33,406 bases of DNA from positions 1-33,406 of the IMG/VR virus record IMGVR_UViG_3300042894_001062, one strand, 5' to 3'. The notes beneath the pieces are model-generated. The model was not told the origin of the DNA, searched no databases, and saw only the letters and a list, made by a program, of their open reading frames with translations. Source of the stretch: a virus. The position numbers and the translations under genes are program-made. Positions 7,087 through 20,330 of the stretch are shown here, piece after piece; the stretch's first letter is position 1, and each line of letters begins with the position of its first letter.

Positions 7087-7512
7087 ATGGCTTTTAATCC
7101 GCAACCGAAAATTAAAAAAGCAAAAAAAGAAAGTAGATCCTCTATTGTAAAAAAACTTGATACTGAATTTAGTATTTATGTAAGGAAAAGATTTGCAGTC
7201 GATAGGAAAGCAAGTTGTTTTACGTGCGATAAAATAGATGATTGGAATAAAATGCAATGCGGTCACTTTCAATCAAGAAAGCATTATGCCACAAGATGGG
7301 ATGAAACAAATTGTCAAGTCCAATGCGTAGGATGTAATGTTTACAAGTATGGCGAACAATTTAAGTTCGGAATACATTTGAATCAAGTATATGGTGCTGG
7401 GGTTGCTGAAAGTCTTTTACAAAAAGCAAGGTCAGAAGTAAAGATTAAAGATTTTGAACTGAAAGAATTAACAGAATACTATAAAAATATGAACAAACTA
7501 TTTGATTTTTAA
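7087..7512 (+). CDS. ninG: NinG/Rap-like recombination protein (141 aa)
   Basis: This resembles lambda NinG (Rap), a structure-specific endonuclease that acts on branched recombination intermediates. Zinc-type ligands are visible: CFTC (C44, C47), CGH (C58, H60) and CQVQCVGC (C76, C80, C83). The family signature continues as GHFQSRKHYATRWDETN and YGEQFKFGIHL. The basic N-terminus (PKIKKAKKESRSS) is typical. A length of 141 is shorter than lambda NinG but normal for Bacteroidota phage versions. It works with the ERF annealing protein, the SSB-like protein and the FEN exonuclease encoded downstream. Confidence 0.85.
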   Translation: MAFNPQPKIKKAKKESRSSIVKKLDTEFSIYVRKRFAVDRKASCFTCDKIDDWNKMQCGHFQSRKHYATRWDETNCQVQCVGCNVYKYGEQFKFGIHLNQVYGAGVAESLLQKARSEVKIKDFELKELTEYYKNMNKLFDF

Positions 7513-7535: not shown

Positions 7536-7627
7536 CTCTTGATAGTAACTCTGCATTGCTTATCATAAATCAGTTTTTAGTGAGACGGAAAATTCGCCTA
7601 TGTTTTAGACATAAGGCGTTTTTTTTT
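7536..7627 (+). ncRNA. Putative ~90-nt small RNA
   Basis: A promoter (7501-7530) and an intrinsic terminator (7595-7627) bracket about 90 nt with no open reading frame. A TGATA/TATCA arm pair (around 7550-7566) can form a 5' hairpin with a central loop, and the terminator hairpin forms the 3' end. The 5' end is inferred from the promoter. It could be a free small RNA acting on host or phage mRNA. No known family is recognised. Confidence 0.5.
7595..7627 (+). terminator. Intrinsic terminator of the small RNA
   Basis: CGCCTATG (7595-7602) pairs with CATAAGGCG (7610-7618), with one bulged A, around a TTTTAGA loop and is followed by nine T residues (7619-7627). It isolates the small RNA from the next promoter at 7647-7679. 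Confidence 0.85.
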
Positions 7628-7646
7628 GCTTTTTTTTGCCATTCCA

Positions 7647-7679
7647 TTTGTTTTTATTAAAAAATTGTTTTTATCTTTG
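7647..7679 (+). promoter_or_regulatory. Bacteroidota-type promoter of the ribozyme leader
   Basis: TTTG at 7647-7650 and TATCTTTG at 7672-7679 are separated by 21 nt. The -7 box matches TAnnTTTG exactly. Predicted transcription starts near 7686, giving a 5' leader of about 245 nt before ATG 7931. Confidence 0.65.
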
Positions 7680-7685
7680 CCTCGT

Positions 7686-7864
7686 TGATTTGGTTCAGCA
7701 GTAGAGATAACTACTAATTAAATCGGGTTCATATATCCCTATTTGTATGTTGGGAAACAACACCGAGAAAGTTGCGGAAGTCAATAAAGACTATAACATT
7801 GGGTAAGCATACTCTGACTTAAAAATCGAATGCCTTGACCACTCTAAATAAGAACTGGCAAGTA
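7686..7864 (+). ncRNA. Structured leader RNA of unknown family, upstream of the ribozyme
   Basis: No reading frame covers this stretch. Visible helices include AGTAG/CTACU-type arms (7700-7704 with 7711-7715), TGTTG/CAACA around a GGAAA loop (7748-7752 with 7758-7762), and CCG/CGG (7763-7765 with 7775-7777). AGTC/GACT (7779-7782 with 7789-7792) and GCAT/ATGC (7807-7810 with 7830-7833) are also present. Some pairings compete: GTTG 7771-7774 can take CAAC 7758-7761, and AAGTC 7778-7782 can pair with GACTT 7816-7820. The ribozyme directly downstream would release this RNA as a ~185-nt fragment. Its function is unknown; it could be a regulatory RNA or a switch. Confidence 0.5.
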
Positions 7865-7917
7865 AGTGTACAAGGATGTGTTATCCTTGCTGATGAGTAG
7901 CAGAACTACGAAACACT
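7865..7917 (+). ncRNA. Hammerhead self-cleaving ribozyme, type III topology
   Basis: All core elements are present. Stem III: AGTGT 7865-7869 with ACACT 7913-7917 (5 bp). Cleavage triplet GTA ends at 7870, so the cut falls between 7870 and 7871. Stem I: CAAGGAT 7871-7877 with ATCCTTG 7883-7889 (7 bp, loop GTGTT). Core CTGATGA 7890-7896. Stem II: GTAG 7897-7900 with CTAC 7906-7909 (4 bp, loop CAGAA). GAAA 7910-7913, whose last A pairs with the U of the triplet. Stem III is open, hence type III. The cut would free the upstream leader and leave the mRNA for gene 7931 with a 5'-OH end and 60 nt of leader. Hammerheads are known in phage genomes; activity here is predicted, not shown. Confidence 0.9.
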
Positions 7918-7930
7918 AAAAACAAAAAAA

Positions 7931-8176
7931 ATGGAAAAGTTAAACAATCAACTGGGTAATCTTATTGCAGAAAATTTAAACTTAAATTTCTTTTTCTCGG
8001 TAACAATTAGTAATTATGAATTATTTTTATTAGGTAAATATACCTTAATTACCGAAGAATATTTGCTGAACAATGGATTTGTAATTTATGATTATGCACA
8101 CACAGATAATCCCTTATTTATTGAGTTTATTAAAGGAAATGTAAAAGCAACTTTGGCGGTAAATGAAAATTTATAA
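7931..8176 (+). CDS. Hypothetical protein behind the ribozyme leader (81 aa)
   Basis: I do not recognise the family. The protein begins MEKLNNQLGNLIAENLNLNF, is acidic to neutral, and has mixed helix and strand character (FFSVTISNYELFLLGKYTL, then FVIYDYAHTDNPLFIEFIKG). It is the first gene of a unit made by the promoter at 7647-7679 and is preceded directly by the ribozyme and the CACTAAAAACAAAA leader. The expensive upstream RNA suggests its dose or timing matters. Small ORFs follow closely at 8179 and 8328. Confidence 0.6.
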   Translation: MEKLNNQLGNLIAENLNLNFFFSVTISNYELFLLGKYTLITEEYLLNNGFVIYDYAHTDNPLFIEFIKGNVKATLAVNENL

Positions 8177-8451: not shown

Positions 8452-8474
8452 AATCACTAAAAACAAAAAAAATG
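8452..8474 (+). promoter_or_regulatory. Shared leader motif (AATCACTAAAAACAAAA), copy before the JAB gene
   Basis: The word directly precedes ATG 8472. The same word lies before ATG 10835 (from 10816) and ATG 14651 (from 14632), and a truncated form follows the hammerhead core before ATG 7931 (7913-7930). It is probably a 5' UTR translation signal replacing a Shine-Dalgarno sequence, or part of a common promoter-proximal region. Confidence 0.55.
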
Positions 8475-8885
8475 AAGAAATTTGAATTAAAAACTTTACA
8501 GACTAATTTTGAAGCTGTAAAGATAACAAAAGACGAAGATGCAATCAATGTAATAAGACAATTTTACGGAGATGATATTGAGATATTTGAAAGTTGTTTT
8601 ATACTGCTTTTAAATAATTCTAACATAACGATCGGTTATGCTAAAATAAGTCAAGGGGGAATAACTGGCACAGTAGTAGACACAAGATTGATTGCAAAGT
8701 ATGCTATTGAAAGTTTGGCAACTGGTGTTATTTTATGCCATAATCATCCGAGTGGAAGTTTAAAGCCGAGTGAAGCTGATATTTCAACTACTAAAAAAGT
8801 AAAAGACGGCTTGAAAATATTTGATATTGTTTTGCTCGACCATATTATACTTACCAAAGATAGTTATTCAACAATACCTTTGTAA
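8472..8885 (+). CDS. RadC-like JAB/JAMM domain protein (137 aa)
   Basis: This is the C-terminal metalloprotease-like domain of RadC (COG2003), found alone in many phages and mobile elements. The zinc motif is clear: CHNHPSGSLKPSEAD supplies H90, H92 and D103, and ESCFILLLN has the upstream acidic residue E40. LLDHIIL at ~121-127 is the usual RadC ending. The helix-hairpin-helix part of full RadC is absent. The role is uncertain; DNA repair or antirestriction has been proposed for the family, and the neighbouring NinG and ERF fit a DNA-processing setting. Confidence 0.88.
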   Translation: MKKFELKTLQTNFEAVKITKDEDAINVIRQFYGDDIEIFESCFILLLNNSNITIGYAKISQGGITGTVVDTRLIAKYAIESLATGVILCHNHPSGSLKPSEADISTTKKVKDGLKIFDIVLLDHIILTKDSYSTIPL

Positions 8886-9052
8886 TGCGGTTCGAGGACT
8901 ATAAGTTGATTTACGAGCAAATGGTAGCCGTATTCAAGAGAGATAAAGAATTGACACATATTGAAATAACATTTGAAATTCAACCAATAACAACAGATAA
9001 AAAAACTGCAAGAATTAACGTAAAAACATACAAAGATGGCGACAAAAGATAG
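8885..9052 (+). CDS. Hypothetical small protein (55 aa)
   Basis: The start shares one base with the previous stop (TAATG). The protein begins MRFEDYKLIYEQMVAVFKRD, then a strand-rich stretch (ELTHIEITFEIQPITT) and a basic end (INVKTYKDGDKR). The next gene starts 17 bases inside it. No family is recognised. The tight junctions on both sides support a real gene. Confidence 0.5.
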   Translation: MRFEDYKLIYEQMVAVFKRDKELTHIEITFEIQPITTDKKTARINVKTYKDGDKR

Positions 9053-9260
9053 TATTAGCTACAAGGGAATTGATTTTGATTTTGAATATAGTTATTATGC
9101 TGGTCGTAGGGCGACTTATGAAGAACCAGAGGAACACGAAGAAATTGAAGTTTACAATGTAAAAATCAACGGAAACGATGCCGAATGGCTTTTAGAGAGC
9201 CAATGGGATGAATTCGTAGATGAAGTACTTAATTCAATAAAAGAAAGAGGAAATGGATAA
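9036..9260 (+). CDS. Hypothetical acidic protein (74 aa)
   Basis: The protein is very acidic, with EEPEEHEEIEVYNVKINGND in the middle and WLLESQWDEFVDEVLNSIKE near the end. The first part (SISYKGIDFDFEYSYYAG) looks like paired beta strands. Strong acidity is common in DNA-mimic or antirestriction proteins, but nothing more specific supports that here. It overlaps the next gene by eight bases. Confidence 0.55.
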   Translation: MATKDSISYKGIDFDFEYSYYAGRRATYEEPEEHEEIEVYNVKINGNDAEWLLESQWDEFVDEVLNSIKERGNG

Positions 9261-9435
9261 TAAATTAGATACACGCTGGATGTTACTCGAGGAGGGATAT
9301 CCGCATACCGTTCTACTAACGGAAGAAGAAGTAAAAAAGCTGGTTGTAATATACCAGCAAAAAAATCCGCATTTAAATTATTCTGCTGGGTACGATGAGT
9401 ATTATGAATTTTCAGATTTAAAACCAAATAACTAA
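9253..9435 (+). CDS. Hypothetical small protein (60 aa)
   Basis: The start overlaps the previous gene by eight bases. The protein reads MDNKLDTRWMLLEEGYPHTV at the start, then LLTEEEVKKLVVIYQQ, a likely helix, and ends DEYYEFSDLKPNN. It is acidic and soluble. No family is recognised. It belongs to a run of small early genes between the JAB and ERF genes. Confidence 0.5.
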   Translation: MDNKLDTRWMLLEEGYPHTVLLTEEEVKKLVVIYQQKNPHLNYSAGYDEYYEFSDLKPNN

Positions 9436-9441
9436 AAAAAG

Positions 9442-9639
9442 ATGGAACAAATTATTGAATCAATTAACAAGAAGTTGAAATTTTATGATGTCATAGAATT
9501 GACAGAAATCGAAAAGAATTTCGATGGTAAAGCGTTTAAATTTTCAAGCACTATGGGATATGGTGTTTATGAACAAGAATCACAGATTTATGTGACAATT
9601 AACGATGTAATGTATTTAGCAACAATAGAACCGAAATAA
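9442..9639 (+). CDS. Hypothetical small protein (65 aa)
   Basis: The protein begins MEQIIESINKKLKFYDVIEL and continues with a helix and likely strands (FKFSSTMGYGVYEQESQIYV, then TINDVMYLATIEPK). It is preceded by an A-rich leader (ACTAAAAAAAG). No known family. The next gene follows after one base, consistent with an operon of small early genes. Confidence 0.5.
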   Translation: MEQIIESINKKLKFYDVIELTEIEKNFDGKAFKFSSTMGYGVYEQESQIYVTINDVMYLATIEPK

Positions 9640-9640
9640 A

Positions 9641-9844
9641 ATGAAATCTAACGAAAACTGGGGTACGAAAGAAGCAATGCACTTCCTTTCACAAAGTAAT
9701 GAAGCATTAAGAACAGAAAACAGAAGATTGCTCGATGAGATTGAAAGACTTACAAATTCAATGGAAGTACTGGATGCCGAAATAGTAAGCAATCAATATT
9801 ATGGCTGTAAAGTAAATTATAATTTTAACACTAAAACTAAATAA
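9641..9844 (+). CDS. Small coiled-coil protein (67 aa)
   Basis: Residues ~15-48 form a heptad-like charged helix (SNEALRTENRRLLDEIERLT). The C-terminus has YYGCKVNYNFNTKTK. It probably oligomerises. It sits two bases upstream of the ERF gene and could be a partner of the recombination proteins, but this is inference from position. Confidence 0.5.
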   Translation: MKSNENWGTKEAMHFLSQSNEALRTENRRLLDEIERLTNSMEVLDAEIVSNQYYGCKVNYNFNTKTK

Positions 9845-9846
9845 AA

Positions 9847-10425
9847 ATGGAAGCAAAAACAATTATTGCATTTAACTCAATGAGTTTGGCAAGTAAATTA
9901 TCTCAAATTCAAGTAGAATTTAAAGCGAAAAAAACATCGTTTAATAAGTTCGGTAATTATTATTTTCGTAGTGCTGAATCGATTTTAGAAGCATTAAAGC
10001 CGTTGAACGAAAAGTATCAAGTTTACTTTACGATTAACGAAAGATTAATCAATGCTAATCCACCAATTATGGAATCGGTAGCTACTATTTGGTGTTGTGA
10101 AAGCGGTCAGAGTATAGACTGCCAAGCAATAGTAGGAGTTGATTTAGAACAGAAAGGTATGGCTATGTCGCAAAGGTTCGGGGCAACTTCCAGTTATGGG
10201 AAGAAATATGCGCTGGGTAATTTATTATTGATTGATGATACCGCTGATGCCGATGCTACAAACAAGCACGACAAAGTTGCTACACCAGCAAAAACAATAT
10301 TGGAAGCTGGAACAGATGCTTATGATAAAGCAGTTGATTATATCGCTGGTGGGGGAGATATTGCATTAATCGAGAAGAAATATATGTTAAGTATAGAAAT
10401 TAAAAATAAACTTTTAAATAAATAA
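9847..10425 (+). CDS. ERF-family single-strand annealing protein (192 aa)
   Basis: This resembles P22 Erf-type recombinases, which anneal complementary single strands during phage recombination and genome circularisation. Diagnostic features are FGNYYFRSAESILEALKPL early on, and QRFGATSSYGKKYALGNLLL followed by IDDTADADATN in the core. The C-terminal ~45 residues form a short polar helical domain. It lies two bases upstream of an SSB-like gene, the usual pairing, and the genome also encodes NinG and a FEN exonuclease. A circularly permuted genome fits a need for recombination. Confidence 0.88.
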   Translation: MEAKTIIAFNSMSLASKLSQIQVEFKAKKTSFNKFGNYYFRSAESILEALKPLNEKYQVYFTINERLINANPPIMESVATIWCCESGQSIDCQAIVGVDLEQKGMAMSQRFGATSSYGKKYALGNLLLIDDTADADATNKHDKVATPAKTILEAGTDAYDKAVDYIAGGGDIALIEKKYMLSIEIKNKLLNK

Positions 10426-10427
10426 AA

Positions 10428-10778
10428 ATGGAAATTCAAGGACAAATTATTCACATTGGAACTACCGAAACATTCGGAGCAAAAGGATTTAAGAAAAGGC
10501 AAATTGTAATTAAGACCCATGCGCAAAATCAACAGAGTATTCCAGTTGATTTTACGCAAGATAAATGTATCGTACTTGATAAGTATTCAATAGGGCAGTT
10601 TGCTAAAATATCGGTAAACGTACAAGGTTCTGAATGGCAAGGTAAGTACTATGTAAATCTTCAAGGATGGAAAATTGAGAACGGAGAAAAGGAAAAGTCA
10701 GCAGAATCATTTATGCCCGATAGAGATACATCCTCTCCAGCTTTACAAGATGAAGAAGAAGATGATTTACCATTTTAA
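10428..10778 (+). CDS. SSB-like OB-fold protein, DUF3127-like (116 aa)
   Basis: The protein starts MEIQGQIIHIGTTETFGAKG followed by FKKRQIVIKTH, the pattern of the DUF3127 single-strand-binding-like family common in Bacteroidota. Beta strands of an OB fold can be traced to WKIENGE at ~80-86. The C-terminus is an acidic tail ending DEEEDDLPF, like the SSB tip that recruits partner proteins. It probably coats single-stranded DNA and cooperates with the ERF protein encoded two bases upstream. A terminator follows at once. Confidence 0.8.
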   Translation: MEIQGQIIHIGTTETFGAKGFKKRQIVIKTHAQNQQSIPVDFTQDKCIVLDKYSIGQFAKISVNVQGSEWQGKYYVNLQGWKIENGEKEKSAESFMPDRDTSSPALQDEEEDDLPF

Positions 10779-10785
10779 TTTAACT

Positions 10786-10815
10786 GGCTGGGGGGAAACT
10801 TCCAGCCTTTTTTTT
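10786..10815 (+). terminator. Intrinsic terminator after the SSB-like gene
   Basis: GGCTGG (10786-10791) pairs with CCAGCC (10802-10807) around a 10-nt loop and is followed by eight T residues (10808-10815). It closes the recombination operon. The next gene starts with its own copy of the AATCACTAAAAACAAAA leader. Confidence 0.85.
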
Positions 10816-10834
10816 AATCACTAAAAACAAAAAT

Positions 10835-11746
10835 ATGTTAATAGACTACAACAAACAACTGGACATCATTCGTAATATCAGAAGCGGAAAACTAAAAGAG
10901 GGTTTAAAACTGGATATTCCCGAACTTGATGAATACATTCGTTTTAAAACTTCAAACTTCAATATAGTACTCGGACACGCTAACGTAGGCAAGACTACAT
11001 CCATTTTATACTTAATGCTTTGTTATTCCTTAAAACATAGCTTAAAATGGCTCGTATGCAGTTCAGAGAATGATTCTTATTCCCTAATTAGAAAGCTGGT
11101 GGAATTTCTTGATGAAACACCAATCAATTTAATGTCGGAAGCTAATTTCAAAACTCATTCCGACTTTGTAAATAAGCACTTTAAATTTGTAGATAATTCA
11201 GTAATGTATGATTTCAAAATGGCATTGGTTATGTTCAAGGATGTTAAGAAAGATTTTGCTTATAATGGTATTCTACTTGATCCGTATAATGCACTTATCA
11301 AGGATAACGAAATGATGAAAAGTTTGGGCGGTCACGAATATGACTACCAAGCGTGTACCGAGATGCGGATGTTCTGCAAGGAAAATAAGGTAACGATGTG
11401 GCTGAATACACACGCTAATACAAATGCTTTGCGTATGGTATATCGTAACGAACATCAGTACGCTGGACATCCATTACCGCCAATGGCAAGTGATGTAGAG
11501 GGCGGTGGTAAGTTTGTAAACAGAGCAGATGATTTTATTGTAATTCATAGACTAACTTTACATCCGCAACTTTATACTACAACTATGATTCATATTCGGA
11601 AAGTAAAAGAAATTGAAACTGGTGGGCGACCTACCAGCATAGATAATCCTATTGAAATTGTAGCACTACAAAATAATGTCGGCTTTGCAATTAATGGTAA
11701 ATCTATTTTGCGAACCATAAAAGAATCCCAACTAAATTTTTTATAG
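10835..11746 (+). CDS. DnaB/RepA-like hexameric helicase ATPase (303 aa)
   Basis: This is a RecA-fold ATPase of the DnaB/KaiC superfamily, probably the phage replicative helicase. The Walker A motif is GHANVGKTT (~47-55), and a Walker-B-like segment is GILLDPYNAL (~145-154). WLNTHANTNAL (~190) matches the H4-type region, and DDFIVIHR follows later. It has only the C-terminal motor part of DnaB, with no N-terminal scaffold domain, as in several Bacteroidota phages. No phage DNA polymerase or primase is seen, so host enzymes must be recruited. The stop abuts the sigma factor gene directly. Confidence 0.8.
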   Translation: MLIDYNKQLDIIRNIRSGKLKEGLKLDIPELDEYIRFKTSNFNIVLGHANVGKTTSILYLMLCYSLKHSLKWLVCSSENDSYSLIRKLVEFLDETPINLMSEANFKTHSDFVNKHFKFVDNSVMYDFKMALVMFKDVKKDFAYNGILLDPYNALIKDNEMMKSLGGHEYDYQACTEMRMFCKENKVTMWLNTHANTNALRMVYRNEHQYAGHPLPPMASDVEGGGKFVNRADDFIVIHRLTLHPQLYTTTMIHIRKVKEIETGGRPTSIDNPIEIVALQNNVGFAINGKSILRTIKESQLNFL

Positions 11747-15728: not shown

Positions 15729-16331
15729 ATGAAAGAAATAATTTACTTGGAAAGTTTTCCGCTAAAGGACATAAAGCCAAATCCATTGAATCCAAGATTC
15801 ATTAGAGATAAGAAGTTTGAAGATTTAAAACAAAGTATCAAGGACTTACCCGAGATGCTCCAGTTAAGAGAAATTATAGTTGATGAGGATTATGTGGTTC
15901 TGGGCGGTAATATGCGATTGAAAGCATTAACCGAATTGAAATTCAAAACACTAAACATAGTAATGTGGAAAGGACTTACTGATGATGAGAAAAAAGAATT
16001 TGTAATTAAAGACAATGCAAACTACGGCAACTGGGATTGGGATGTACTGGCTAATTCATTTGATGAATCGGATTTAAAAAAGTTCGGTTTGAATGTATGG
16101 CAACCACAAGAAGCAATCGAAGAAGAAGATTACGATTATGGTTTTGAAGATGAGAATACCTACGAAGCAAATGAGAAAGAACCATACTCGAAAAAAGCCG
16201 TTATAGTCGTAGAATTTAATATTCTTGATTATCCAGTAGCTTATGATTTAATCAAAACTCTGACCGACAAAGGAGCAGACATTGGAGCATTATTAATCGA
16301 AAAACTTATATCCAAAGATGGAAACAATTAA
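15729..16331 (+). CDS. ParB-like nuclease/NTPase-fold protein 1 (200 aa)
   Basis: The N-terminal ~100 residues match the ParB/sulfiredoxin fold: NPLNPRFIRDKKFEDLKQSI (18-37), PEMLQLREIIVDE and VLGGNMRLKAL (58-68). The second half is acidic (EEEDYDYGFEDENTYEANEK) and ends in a short alpha/beta segment (ADIGALLIEKL). Phage ParB-like proteins often accompany DNA-modification genes; known ParB proteins are CTPases, and nuclease or targeting roles are proposed in this context. It overlaps a second ParB-like gene by 14 bases. Confidence 0.82.
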   Translation: MKEIIYLESFPLKDIKPNPLNPRFIRDKKFEDLKQSIKDLPEMLQLREIIVDEDYVVLGGNMRLKALTELKFKTLNIVMWKGLTDDEKKEFVIKDNANYGNWDWDVLANSFDESDLKKFGLNVWQPQEAIEEEDYDYGFEDENTYEANEKEPYSKKAVIVVEFNILDYPVAYDLIKTLTDKGADIGALLIEKLISKDGNN

Positions 16332-16887
16332 AATACAAATAGGGCAATTAAAAAATTCGAATTACAATCCGAGGGTAATTGATACTTTCAAATACGAAAG
16401 TTTAAAAAAGTCAATACTCAATATGCCAAGTATGCTGGAAGTAAGACCAATACTGGTTGATGAAGATAATAACATACTGGCTGGTAATATGCGTTACCGA
16501 GCGTGTATGGAACTTGGTTATGCGGAAGTATTCATCAAGAAAATAAATAACCTATCTGAATCCCAAAAAAGGGAATTGATGATAAAGGATAATATTTCTT
16601 ACGGAGAATGGGATGAACAAATTTTAGCAGACAACTTCAATACTGATTATGTTAATGATTGGCTGGGTAAAGAGATTATAGATTATTCCGCATTGCTTTA
16701 CGAGGATGTATCAGAAGAAATAGAATCATTGCACCAAGGAGTAAAAAAATCTGTTCACATAAAGATTAATGGAGACTTTGAAAAGGCGCAAGAGTTAGAG
16801 AAGCGTTTTAAGGAACGAAAAATTTATATAGGTGGGTTGCTTATAGATAAACTAAAAGAAGTAAAAAAAGCGTATGAAACGAATTGA
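16318..16887 (+). CDS. ParB-like protein 2 (189 aa)
   Basis: This is a tandem paralogue of the preceding gene: NYNPRVIDTFKYESLKKSIL (15-34), PSMLEVRPILVDEDNNILAG (37-56) and NMRYRACMELGY. The RELMIKDNISYGEWDEQIL segment corresponds to KEFVIKDNANYGNWDWDVL in protein 1, and the C-terminal IYIGGLLIDKL matches its end. The two copies share architecture but have diverged strongly, so they may form a heterodimer or read different signals. It overlaps the dioxygenase gene by 14 bases. Confidence 0.82.
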   Translation: METIKIQIGQLKNSNYNPRVIDTFKYESLKKSILNMPSMLEVRPILVDEDNNILAGNMRYRACMELGYAEVFIKKINNLSESQKRELMIKDNISYGEWDEQILADNFNTDYVNDWLGKEIIDYSALLYEDVSEEIESLHQGVKKSVHIKINGDFEKAQELEKRFKERKIYIGGLLIDKLKEVKKAYETN

Positions 16888-17656
16888 TTTAATACAAGTA
16901 GAACATAATAGAAAGATTGGGGATATATGTGAATACATAGAACCGAATGTAACAGAGGATAGTTTGTTTTATTCTGATGGCGAACTAATAGGATTCTACA
17001 TTAGGAATATCTCAAAGTATAGTAAAAAGTTATCTGATCTGATTGCTATTGCAAATAAAGAATTATTGTCCGATGCCGTTCCAAAAAGTACAATGAAAAG
17101 AAGTAGCGGATTAATAAATAAAGCAAATGATGTATTGCAGTTTTCTACCATACTTGGTGCGATACCACCAAAGCCACATATGAGGAGAGCATACCCAAGC
17201 ACAAGTTCAGTTCACTATTATCCAACTGCAAAGACTTTTGTTAAAGCAATGCTACTCGCATCAGAGGAAAGCGCATTGTTAATCAAAGAGTTAGCACCAA
17301 ACATTTATGACAATCAAGTAGAAATTATGAACAATGTAAAAGACCAATGGAAGTTTGGAAAACTATTTACAAGTTCTATTTCGAATTTTAATATTTCTGC
17401 TGGGTTTCATATTGACAATGCAAACATAAAAGGATGTGTAAATGTAATTATCTGCAAGAGGAAAGATAGTAAAGGCGGTTGCACTACCGTTCCAGACTAT
17501 GGGGCAACAGTTGATAGTTGTGATAATAGTATGCTGGTATATCCAGCTTGGAGAAACATTCACGCAGTAACACCAATAGTACCTTTGGCAGAAGATGGTT
17601 ACAGAAACACATTAGTATTTTATCCTTTAAAAGCATTCCTAAATGAAAACATTTAA
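16874..17656 (+). CDS. 2OG-Fe(II) dioxygenase, TET/JBP-like (260 aa)
   Basis: The C-terminal half forms a double-stranded beta-helix with a full iron and 2-oxoglutarate set: FHID (H179, D181), NIHAVTP (H230) and YRNT (R244). The GGCTTVPDYGA and NSMLVYPAWRN segments between them resemble TET/JBP-type DNA-base oxygenases. The N-terminal ~160 residues are helical. It probably oxidises the 5-methyl group of thymine (or of 5-methylcytosine) in DNA to hydroxymethyl, giving the substrate for the kinase encoded at 19851. It overlaps ParB-2 and the PLP gene by 14 bases each. The substrate is inferred. Confidence 0.78.
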   Translation: MKRIDLIQVEHNRKIGDICEYIEPNVTEDSLFYSDGELIGFYIRNISKYSKKLSDLIAIANKELLSDAVPKSTMKRSSGLINKANDVLQFSTILGAIPPKPHMRRAYPSTSSVHYYPTAKTFVKAMLLASEESALLIKELAPNIYDNQVEIMNNVKDQWKFGKLFTSSISNFNISAGFHIDNANIKGCVNVIICKRKDSKGGCTTVPDYGATVDSCDNSMLVYPAWRNIHAVTPIVPLAEDGYRNTLVFYPLKAFLNENI

Positions 17657-18641
17657 TGCATTATCATTTGATAGAAGCAAAAGCCGATGGGAAGAACACC
17701 TATATGATTTTACTCCAGTAGAAAAAATAGGCGATATGTTTTTCAAGAGGGAAGATAAATTCGCACCGCTGGGATTCGGTTCTATAAATGGAAGTAAGTT
17801 AAGACAATGTATTTGGCTGGTTCACGAGTGGGTAAGAACTAAAAACGTAAGAGGAATTGTAAGTGGTAGCGTGGTGGGTTCTCCACAACATCCGTTCATT
17901 GCATCAATATGTAAGCACTATAACATTGGATGTCTGATAGTTACGGGTTCAAAGAATTATAAGTCACATAAGAATATGCAGTTAGCAGAAGAACTGGGGG
18001 CGCAATTCCACGTTACCAATATTGGTTATGCAAAAGCATTGCAAAGCAAATCGTTTAAACTGGCGAAGTTATTACCAAATCACGAAGTATTAGAAACAAA
18101 TATAACAGTTGATGAAAGGATTAATAGTCCAGAAAGAATTGAAGCGTTTCACAAAGTAGGAAGTTACCAAGTGAATAATATTCCGAACCATATTGAAACA
18201 TTGATTATCCCTTGTGGCTCGTGTAATTCAGTAACATCAATTTTGTATGGTATAGCATTGAAAAAGCCAAAAGCATTAAAAAGGATTTTATTGATGGGAA
18301 TCGGTAACAACGGAAGTTATCATTTGGATTACATCCCAAGGCGGTTGAAAATAATTAGCGGTGTGCTGGGGGTTGATTTGAATCAATCATTTGACTATAC
18401 TTTTTTTAAAGATAGAAACGCAAATGGAATTGAAGTACTGCATCACAATTTAAATGGAAGTGGATTTTGTACTTACGATTGCTGGATGCCTTATTCATAC
18501 AATGGATTAAATTTACATCCAAGATATGAGGGGAAAGTATTCAATTATATGAAAGCAAATCCAAATGAATTTGACAAGTATATGAATGAAAAAACTCTTT
18601 TTTGGATAGTAGGAAACGAACCGACATACATTCCAGCATAG
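17643..18641 (+). CDS. Fold-type II PLP-dependent enzyme (332 aa)
   Basis: The protein resembles the tryptophan synthase beta/ACC deaminase superfamily. The probable PLP-binding lysine is K52 in SINGSKLRQC. FFKREDKFAPLG precedes it, the SGSVVGSPQHPF loop follows, and the glycine/serine phosphate-binding loop is IIPCGSCNSVTSILYG (~188-203). It keeps most of the family's length (~330). Such enzymes are found in phage DNA hypermodification loci, where they decarboxylate or rearrange an amino acid attached to a base. Here it is coupled to the dioxygenase gene by a 14-base overlap, which supports a role on modified DNA rather than on free amino acids. Confidence 0.78.
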   Translation: MKTFNALSFDRSKSRWEEHLYDFTPVEKIGDMFFKREDKFAPLGFGSINGSKLRQCIWLVHEWVRTKNVRGIVSGSVVGSPQHPFIASICKHYNIGCLIVTGSKNYKSHKNMQLAEELGAQFHVTNIGYAKALQSKSFKLAKLLPNHEVLETNITVDERINSPERIEAFHKVGSYQVNNIPNHIETLIIPCGSCNSVTSILYGIALKKPKALKRILLMGIGNNGSYHLDYIPRRLKIISGVLGVDLNQSFDYTFFKDRNANGIEVLHHNLNGSGFCTYDCWMPYSYNGLNLHPRYEGKVFNYMKANPNEFDKYMNEKTLFWIVGNEPTYIPA

Positions 18642-18662
18642 GTACGGAGAGTTAAAATAAAG

Positions 18663-18730
18663 CATTTTAAGCAATTTTTATTTGCTGGTAACTATTTTGT
18701 TATAAAGTTAGAGAACGTTAAAAATCCTAT
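18663..18730 (+). promoter_or_regulatory. 68-bp regulatory element, copy B (upstream of transferase/terminase unit)
   Basis: This matches 5852-5919 over 68 bp without gaps (one mismatch in the first 19, two in the last 38, centre different). It lies between the PLP gene and ATG 18757, 26 bases before the start. It probably begins a new transcription unit running through the modification transferase, kinase, terminase and tail genes. The same control of lysis and packaging genes would suit a late promoter. Confidence 0.65.
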
Positions 18731-18756
18731 CGGAAGGATATATAAGAAAGCACATT

Positions 18757-19854
18757 ATGATTGGAAGATATTGCGATATAAATTCAGAACAAGAAGAAAA
18801 AGATTTGAAATATGGTATGGATTTTCGGGAACCAAAATATAGGAGAGAAGTATTTTTGCGGTTCTATGAATTTCATTTAAAGAACAAGTCACACGCTGGG
18901 GCGGTTTATTATGTATTCCCTTTTATCTTTGAAAAGATGCAAATGAACCAAGAGCAAAAATTATGGTTTGCATACATAAATGGATGTACTCAAAATGTAA
19001 TAACAACTTATCTTATTTGGGAACAGATTCCAAACTTGAAAGAAATTGACTTACCTAAATTTAGTAAATGGTACAGAACAAATTATGATAAACTTGGCTG
19101 GGATACAGACCGAAGATACATAAAGAATGTTTTCGAAACGTGCATAGAAAATTACATCAGCATTCTCGATGGAAGAACACAAGAGCAATTTTTCAGAATG
19201 AGAGATGGAGAAGAACACAAGTACACAAACTTCAAATCATTATGGAATACCGTTATAACTAACTTCCATACCTTTGGTAGACTGGCTACATTCAGTTACC
19301 TTGAATTTCTTAAAATAGTAGGACTGAATATAGATTGTGATAGTTTGTTTCTTGATGATATTAGTGGCTCTAAATCACATCGGAATGGATTGTGTAAAGT
19401 GCTGGGGCGAGACGATCTCGATTGGTATAAAACGGAAGTAATATACGATGAAGAAATATTGAACTGGCTTAAAGTAGAGGGTGCATTACTTTTGTTAGAA
19501 GCAAAAAAAAGATTCCCACACGAAGATTTATCCTATTTTACATTAGAAACTACGTTATGTTGTTATAAGTCTTGGCACAGACCGAACAGAAGATACCCGA
19601 ATGTTTACAATGATATGTTTTACGAGAGAATAAAATATGCTGAATCAAAATGGAAAAGGAAGTTACCATTGTTTTGGGAAGCAAGAAAGAAATACTTGCC
19701 AACTGAATTGAGATTGGAAGATAACCGAGCCGACTTTGGAGTACACAAAACAAAACAAAATCATTACAGACTTACTGGGGAAGTAATAATGATGAATAAG
19801 GATTGGGAATGCTTTGATAATAATTATAACGATTACATAAAAAATAGACAATGA
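18757..19854 (+). CDS. Amino acid:DNA transferase-like protein (formerly aGPT-PPlase) (365 aa)
   Basis: The protein resembles the all-helical family predicted as alpha-glutamyl/putrescinyl-thymine pyrophosphorylases and later described as amino acid:DNA transferases. These displace pyrophosphate from activated 5-hydroxymethyluracil in DNA with an amino acid or amine. Recognisable parts are AGAVYYVFPFIFEKMQMN (~47-64), FAYINGCTQN (~71-80), and DDISGSKSHRNGLCKVLGRD (~200-219), the most conserved block. The length is typical. It overlaps the kinase gene by four bases (ATGA), so the two steps are made together. The amino-acid donor cannot be read from the sequence. Confidence 0.78.
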   Translation: MIGRYCDINSEQEEKDLKYGMDFREPKYRREVFLRFYEFHLKNKSHAGAVYYVFPFIFEKMQMNQEQKLWFAYINGCTQNVITTYLIWEQIPNLKEIDLPKFSKWYRTNYDKLGWDTDRRYIKNVFETCIENYISILDGRTQEQFFRMRDGEEHKYTNFKSLWNTVITNFHTFGRLATFSYLEFLKIVGLNIDCDSLFLDDISGSKSHRNGLCKVLGRDDLDWYKTEVIYDEEILNWLKVEGALLLLEAKKRFPHEDLSYFTLETTLCCYKSWHRPNRRYPNVYNDMFYERIKYAESKWKRKLPLFWEARKKYLPTELRLEDNRADFGVHKTKQNHYRLTGEVIMMNKDWECFDNNYNDYIKNRQ

Positions 19855-20330
19855 CAATATTATTAATAGGGATGTGCGGTGCTGGTAAGACGTGGGTAAT
19901 GGAAAAGTTATTACAATACTATGTTCTGTCACACAGAAAGAAGCTGGGTAAGATTTATTACCATACTGACAATAGGATAATTGTTTTGGGCAAATATGAT
20001 GGTTCAATGTATCAAGGTTCTGACAAGTTATCAATGAGTGTAATGACCGATGTTGATAATTTCATAGAATATGCTAAAGAAAAAATTATCGTAGCAGAGG
20101 GGGATAGATTTACAAATAGTAAATTCATCGGGAAAGCAGAGCCAATCATAATCAAGATTACAGATGATGGTGTGCTGGGTAGAATGAAAAGAAATAGCGG
20201 TCAAACAGAAAGACATTTGAAGTCCGTTCAAACAAGAGTAAACAACATAAAAGCAAATCACGATGTTATCAATTCGGATGAAGCGTTTAATTTAATTGTA
20301 AATTTAATAAGCGAACATTATGGCAAATAG
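19851..20330 (+). CDS. 5-hydroxymethyluracil DNA kinase-like P-loop kinase (159 aa)
   Basis: This is a small P-loop kinase with Walker A GMCGAGKT (7-14). LGKYDGSMYQGSDKLS (46-61) is the pattern seen in phage 5-hmdU DNA kinases, and a likely Walker B/lid segment is VAEGDRFTN (81-89). The C-terminal RMKRNSGQTERHLKSVQTR (~121-139) supplies basic residues for ATP or DNA. The predicted reaction is phosphorylation of 5-hydroxymethyluracil in DNA to an activated form for the transferase encoded just upstream. It lacks a fused helical DNA-binding domain. It overlaps the small terminase gene by 11 bases. Confidence 0.78.
   Translation: MTILLIGMCGAGKTWVMEKLLQYYVLSHRKKLGKIYYHTDNRIIVLGKYDGSMYQGSDKLSMSVMTDVDNFIEYAKEKIIVAEGDRFTNSKFIGKAEPIIIKITDDGVLGRMKRNSGQTERHLKSVQTRVNNIKANHDVINSDEAFNLIVNLISEHYGK

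Follow-up and report, generated by a model that had tools for sequence, protein, structure and literature searches.

A type III hammerhead ribozyme between a pseudoknotted leader and a putative early operon in a phage genome

The locus and its ribozyme

The stretch analysed here, called the window, comprises all 33,406 nucleotides of IMG/VR virus record IMGVR_UViG_3300042894_001062 (positions 1 to 33,406). An upstream unit containing a NinG-like gene (7087-7512) is closed at 7595-7628 by a terminator-like intrinsic hairpin (CGCCU AUGU ... ACAU A AGGCG, with one bulge) followed by T9, recognized from sequence and folding; it and the features mapped below, through the primase/helicase gene, lie on the plus strand. 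A simple terminator scan missed this hairpin because it permits no bulge, and the simple sigma-70/terminator scan was set aside as unsuited to this phylum. Downstream, the octamer TATCTTTG at 7672-7679 fits the Bacteroidota sigma-A -7 box TAnnTTTG, which in flavobacteria is located at -12 to -5 (PMC9723704). This places the predicted transcription start near 7684, and TTTG at 7647-7650 fits the -33 element. The predicted transcript opens with a structured leader and a hammerhead motif, followed by a gene of no recognized family encoding 81 amino acids (7931-8176), whose product is homologous to none of the proteins encoded first after 66 other type III elements. Later genes of the same transcription unit (8472-11746) encode RadC-like (8472-8885), ERF (9847-10425) and DnaB-type primase/helicase (10835-11746) proteins. 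With replication and recombination proteins encoded downstream, the label "early gene" is reasonable, early timing itself being inferred.

Two further observations concern the surrounding sequence. An exact 20-nt copy of the hammerhead 3' tail (CACTAAAAACAAAAAAAATG, 7914-7933) occurs at 8455-8474, ahead of the RadC-like gene at 8472. This copy lacks the remainder of the ribozyme and could be either a start-region module that the two sites share or the scar of a recombination. Farther along, a gene cluster at 15729-20330 is suggestive of DNA base hypermodification, its members being a ParB-like pair, a Tet/JBP-type oxygenase, a PLP-type enzyme, an amino acid:DNA transferase (ADDT) and a P-loop nucleotide kinase-like protein. 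ADDT scores 84 bits, the other members falling below Pfam cut-offs.

The type III hammerhead occupies 7865-7917 and is supported by motif reading, folding, covariation and a descriptor. Stem III is formed by AGUGU (7865-7869) pairing with ACACU (7913-7917) over 5 bp; stem I by CAAGGAU (7871-7877) and AUCCUUG (7883-7889), 7 bp plus one G-U pair for 8 in total; and stem II by GUAG (7897-7900) and CUAC (7906-7909), 4 bp. The core strands are CUGAUGA at 7890-7896 and GAA at 7910-7912. H17 is A7870, giving a GUA cleavage triplet at 7868-7870 and, by inference from hammerhead anatomy, a cleavage site 3' of A17 between 7870 and 7871. All that defines a type III core is present (CUGANGA...GAA, an A15.1-U16.1 pair and a non-G H17), as are three helices surrounding it with stem III open. 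Thirteen nucleotides separate stem III from the ATG at 7931, so that the last base of the stem lies 14 nt upstream of that codon's A. The element is thus a complete type III hammerhead, as the sequence-only reading of this locus had described to the base, including all core nucleotides, helices of 7, 4 and 5 bp and the 13-nt distance to the ATG, which holds when counted from stem III. Self-cleavage, by contrast, is inferred from sequence alone.

In isolation, the segment adopts the hammerhead as its minimum-energy fold (-13.5 and -12.5 kcal/mol in two foldings), with a single-sequence folding z-score of merely -1.4. The evidence accordingly rests on motif and covariation, not on folding energy. 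A strict type III descriptor found no match in 300 Markov shuffles of the window on both strands, and the corresponding I/II/III descriptor returned 44 matches in 457 kb of real phage sequence versus none in 5 shuffled sets. No second hammerhead copy was found in the window, whose operon carries this one alone.

Conservation of the ribozyme and its leader

A distant DNA search also located this element in cultured phages of Flavobacterium belonging to the genus Elemovirus, and pattern scans of IMG/VR yielded 23, then 90 and then at least 120 contigs. Across 26 aligned type III elements, standard pairs fill 96.1% of pair cells, two-sided compensatory changes occur in 14 of 18 hammerhead pairs, and the covariation score is 0.572 versus at most 0.115 with slid partners. 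All three helices covary, and the sequence-only proposal, which would have been refuted by a lack of helix conservation in related phages, survives this check. Most homologues were fetched with patterns fixing the core and loops, where conservation is partly a product of how the sequences were picked; stem covariation is not such an artefact, because the patterns left variable stem positions free. The loops of stems I and II (GUGUU and CAGAA), which in a type III hammerhead would touch each other, are likewise conserved among relatives, but the search patterns fixed much of both. Position 7 is the free position of the hammerhead core, and it varies among the relatives (T, C or A). One variant (L088:9790-9860, the same element as L027) stands behind a normal leader with one extra U between core and stem II, and is possibly slow or inactive.

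The host group can be approached through the portal protein. Its only named relatives in the phage collection are from Nonlabens phages, at 36% identity, so the phage likely groups with phages of Flavobacteriia. The Nonlabens phages seem to lack the hammerhead, judging from P12024S, in which the descriptor found none. Neither model R1 run on 395 genomes of a Bacteroidia-type class nor the core pattern run on 395 genomes of the phylum gave a match, in both cases without a positive control genome. These empty searches offer no more than a hint that the cassette may reside in non-integrating phages. Four pattern matches in genome contigs were rejected as chance, none being a hammerhead by the strict descriptor.

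Comparison with Rfam, the other computational check proposed with the sequence-only reading, gave an ambiguous answer. At the gathering threshold no hammerhead match was returned for the window, and annotation at the same level reported none in 7 relatives, which makes gathering-level annotation uninformative here. Run alone on the window element, RF00008 (Hammerhead_3) gives 18.0 bits against a cut-off of 48.5, so membership in that model is not met; the score is low mainly because the model fits this stem III poorly. Close relatives with the same layout reach 22.6 to 45.1 bits. Hammerhead_3 and Hammerhead_1 (RF00163) share their core and helix topology with the phage elements, and the best relatives score 45.1 bits (RF00008) and 31.9 bits (RF00163) against cut-offs of 48.5 and 34, all observed matches lying below. 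The low RF00008 score is a limit of the model and not of the motif.

Upstream of the ribozyme, the leader RNA is predicted, from the promoter box and the cleavage site, to span 187 nt (7684-7870) and, once released by the hammerhead, to end at A7870 with an inferred 2',3'-cyclic phosphate. Its conserved pseudoknotted core (7758-7862) is supported by alignment A3, a pair count and model R2. The core contains helices P1 (7758-7761/7771-7774), P2 (7779-7782/7789-7792) and P3 (7801-7804/7811-7814), a 4-bp pseudoknot (7807-7810/7830-7833) and P5 (7834-7837/7859-7862), which encloses an AAAUA hairpin and, as the closing helix, ends about 2 nt short of hammerhead stem III in the window. The pseudoknot pairs as GCAU/AUGC in the window and elsewhere as GUCU/AGAC, GUCC/GGAC, GACU/AGUC, GGUU/AACC and others. 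Over the 11 aligned sequences, 94.1% of cells are paired, two-sided changes occur in 15 of 28 pairs, and the covariation score is 0.469 versus at most 0.078 for slid versions. Model R2 gives the window 104.7 bits, the window being itself one of the 11 training sequences. The sequence-only description of a promoter-driven structured leader before an early gene therefore held, given the Bacteroidota-type promoter box and the covarying leader, with early timing inferred.

No credible match to Rfam riboswitches or ncRNAs was found for the leader at E up to 10 in the window or up to 1 in 7 relatives, and a group I intron-like reading was dropped for want of an Rfam match. Rfam holds no family for this pseudoknotted leader; it is a candidate for a new one. 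The 5' part of the leader (approximately 7700-7757; a hairpin, AUUAAAUCGGG and CCCUA) resembles an H-type pseudoknot, with only 5 sequences aligned, and this possible pseudoknot is common to L069, L072, L074 and L086. In related contigs, nearly the same ribozyme is preceded by leaders of several types that look different from one another. A second type (CCCAAAUAGGUAGUAUGUG...GGUCUAGGAAGA) lies about 130 nt upstream of the hammerhead in L076, L078, L081, L084, L116, L130, L133 and others; it likewise has an AAAUA hairpin loop and could conceivably be a distant relative of the window leader.

The leader model finds 29 matches in 834 kb, all immediately upstream of a hammerhead, 28 of them strict. 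Since hammerhead patterns had retrieved most of these loci in the first place, the fair sample is the 15 contigs chosen by leader sequence alone (one leader-only pattern gave 12 contigs). In every one of the 15 a hammerhead directly follows the leader, 14 being strict and one a variant with one inserted base; 14 also preserve the complete core, U16.1 and an H17 other than G. The distance from stem III to the start codon is 12-16 nt in 25 of 28 leader-linked cases. What follows the start codon is far less constant. The window leader matches 14 others while the window first protein matches none of theirs, and first proteins are unrelated in 209 of 218 leader-homologous pairs; the cassette is accordingly generic, not tied to one gene.

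Hammerhead arrays in related operons

The contigs retrieved contain 290 non-redundant hammerheads, which cover all three topologies and are distributed across 166 loci, 71 with more than one hammerhead and 38 with mixed types. Type III comes first in 40 of 40 mixed arrays; array counts are per locus and uncorrected for relatedness. An ORF starts within 45 nt downstream of 151 of 196 type I and 56 of 83 type III elements, versus 15% of random positions. Type I elements sit between genes. In 131 of 183 cases the ribozyme contains the upstream stop codon, and the median distance to the next ORF start is 17 nt from the ribozyme (22 nt from the cut).

The longest series noted are the five-hammerhead operons of L102, L139 and L107, in which all three topologies stand in a row as III-III-I-II-I. 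Cultured phages are represented as well. The strict descriptor identifies type I hammerheads in Cellulophaga phage phi19:3 (NC_021789; L278:21767-21819) and Agrobacterium phage OLIVR1 (L279:3960-4009). Phage phi19:3 also has an annotated RNA ligase family protein; a link to cleaved ends is conceivable, with no test data. In Pelagibacter phage EXVC012P (L280:3997-4057), a type I hammerhead-like element overlaps the end of a small gene in a region encoding ArdA-like proteins; an ArdA gene was tied to hammerheads in 2011.

A model for leader release and its alternatives

The likely role of the ribozyme is to detach the first early mRNA from the structured leader RNA so that the resulting ends are defined and folded, with cleavage and role alike inferred. 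In this model the promoter at about 7672-7679 would drive transcription of the folded, pseudoknotted leader, then the type III hammerhead and then the early operon, and the hammerhead would cut itself at 7870/7871, probably during transcription. One product would be a free leader RNA with a fixed 3' end; the other would be an early mRNA beginning with a 5'-OH hairpin and having an unstructured A-rich start region, unstructured because the 5-bp stem III would fall apart after the cut. The predicted mature 5' UTR (7871-7930) folds into the stem I hairpin carrying the 5'-OH, the core, the stem II hairpin and an A-rich unpaired stretch to the start codon. Flavobacterium johnsoniae is without Shine-Dalgarno sites, and adenines at -12/-13 together with low structure aid initiation there (PMC6847099). 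It is from the open A-rich start region, the two retained hairpins and the stem III end at -14 that leader release and mRNA maturation are proposed.

Topology would determine where the ribozyme ends up. A type III cut would leave stems I and II on the downstream mRNA, and after a type I cut the upstream mRNA would retain the ribozyme in its entirety. In related phages, type I and II hammerheads would repeat the cut between later genes, generating mRNA 3' ends with ribozyme hairpins, and a type III element followed by type I or II elements would yield a first mRNA folded at both ends. This operon-splitting role is inapplicable to the window by itself, because its operon has only one hammerhead.

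The motif, its covariation, the leader linkage, the position and the order of types are shown and give the model its basis; cleavage, protective ends, a freed start region and a separate leader function remain inferences. Precedent exists in the haloviruses HF1 and HF2, where an mRNA 5' end was mapped to within 3 nt of a hammerhead's cut site, and clustered phage hammerheads cleave in vitro (PMC3088659). Against the model, the minimum-energy fold of the whole leader, computed without pseudoknots, favours a non-hammerhead pairing by about 3 kcal/mol. The sequence-only reading had proposed built-in mRNA processing, which is supported but too narrow, as leader release and a generic cassette are also implicated.

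Two alternatives remain possible. The first, a translation switch in which the uncut form holds structure near the start region and the cut opens it, does not exclude leader release. It is favoured by the fixed end of stem III 12-16 nt before the start codon in leader-linked cases, adjoining the -12/-13 adenines that promote F. johnsoniae initiation (PMC6847099). Against it, the A-tract itself is unpaired in both cut and uncut forms, and type I ribozymes show similar spacing with a different geometry. The second, bolder reading is a single joint claim: the leader would be a new class of phage ncRNA, abundant from the first early promoter, with the hammerhead as its 3'-end maturation enzyme; the freed leader would act in trans (e.g. 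on host transcription, translation or defence); and the type I/II ribozymes of related phages would divide the remaining operon into mRNAs of one gene each, folded at their ends.

A natural aptazyme, in which the leader senses a ligand or protein and the hammerhead is the output regulating early-operon expression through cutting, is with the translation switch one of the main rivals, though of low probability, and it too could coexist with leader release. The contiguity of leader and ribozyme, with the last leader helix about 2 nt before stem III in the window, speaks for it, as do a pseudoknotted fold resembling sensing RNAs in complexity and a pseudoknot-free fold that allows alternative leader-ribozyme strand pairings. 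The different-looking leaders before nearly the same ribozyme argue against one ligand, however, the downstream genes are mostly unrelated, and the leader has no Rfam riboswitch match.

Less plausible still is a conserved hairpin that merely matches a hammerhead and acts without cleavage. There are no experimental data for this phage, and 4 of 18 consensus-conforming hammerheads failed to cut in vitro in 2011 (PMC3088659); on the other hand, full core, U16.1 and non-G H17 are retained in 14 of 15 leader-chosen contigs, and the operons concerned, in related phages, also carry the motif in other topologies. The idea of a mobile-element relic (retrozyme, retrotransposon or circular RNA) with no phage role is strongly disfavoured, for although hammerheads are common in such elements (PMC3088659), the window has a single copy and no repeat, the position before start codons is fixed, the linkage is to a covarying leader and compensatory changes span diverged phages. 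The sequence-only reading had likewise spoken against transposon debris, and this held, the constant 12-16 nt spacing contradicting it.

With leader release as the preferred account, these data indicate orderly use of catalytic RNA by a large group of free-living phages that mostly go unnoticed at Rfam thresholds, with type III at the operon head and type I or II between genes. Why phages keep hammerheads, a question open since 2011, is now directly testable in cultured systems, namely Elemovirus phages on Flavobacterium sp. BAL314 and Cellulophaga phage phi19:3 on C. baltica #19.

Perreault et al. described phage hammerhead clusters in 2011, proposed transcript splitting and noted the HF1/HF2 element (PMC3088659). 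In the HHphage variant of these lytic viruses, the hammerhead lies 13 nt ahead of the start codon of the gene that opens an early polycistronic transcript; the window shares this arrangement (about 13 nt ahead of the first early gene) at exactly 13 nt, early timing being inferred. HF1/HF2 differ in their archaeal host and variant core, and no structured leader or downstream ribozyme series is described for them in the bearing sections of that paper (PMC3088659). In the prophage clusters of Agrobacterium, Azorhizobium and Clostridium scindens, genes of a single phage transcript are bordered by several hammerheads, for which a role in dividing it into gene-length mRNAs was proposed, and three of the arrays cut in vitro; the bearing sections report no order rule or pseudoknotted leader (PMC3088659). 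Several hammerheads per operon, the mark of this 2011 cluster kind, are absent from the window and present in many related contigs. A word search of the same paper found neither Bacteroidota nor Flavobacterium phages named. Theta ribozymes of Bacteroidota/Bacillota gut phages are likewise small, self-cleaving and engaged in processing phage transcripts, mostly in Bacteroidota phages, but have an HDV-like fold and are tied to tRNA 3' processing (PMC10879173). Within the literature searched, the new elements are the Flavobacterium-type phage family, the fusion of a hammerhead to a covarying pseudoknotted leader, the 12-16 nt spacing rule, the location of the stop codon within type I elements and the rule on the order of types.
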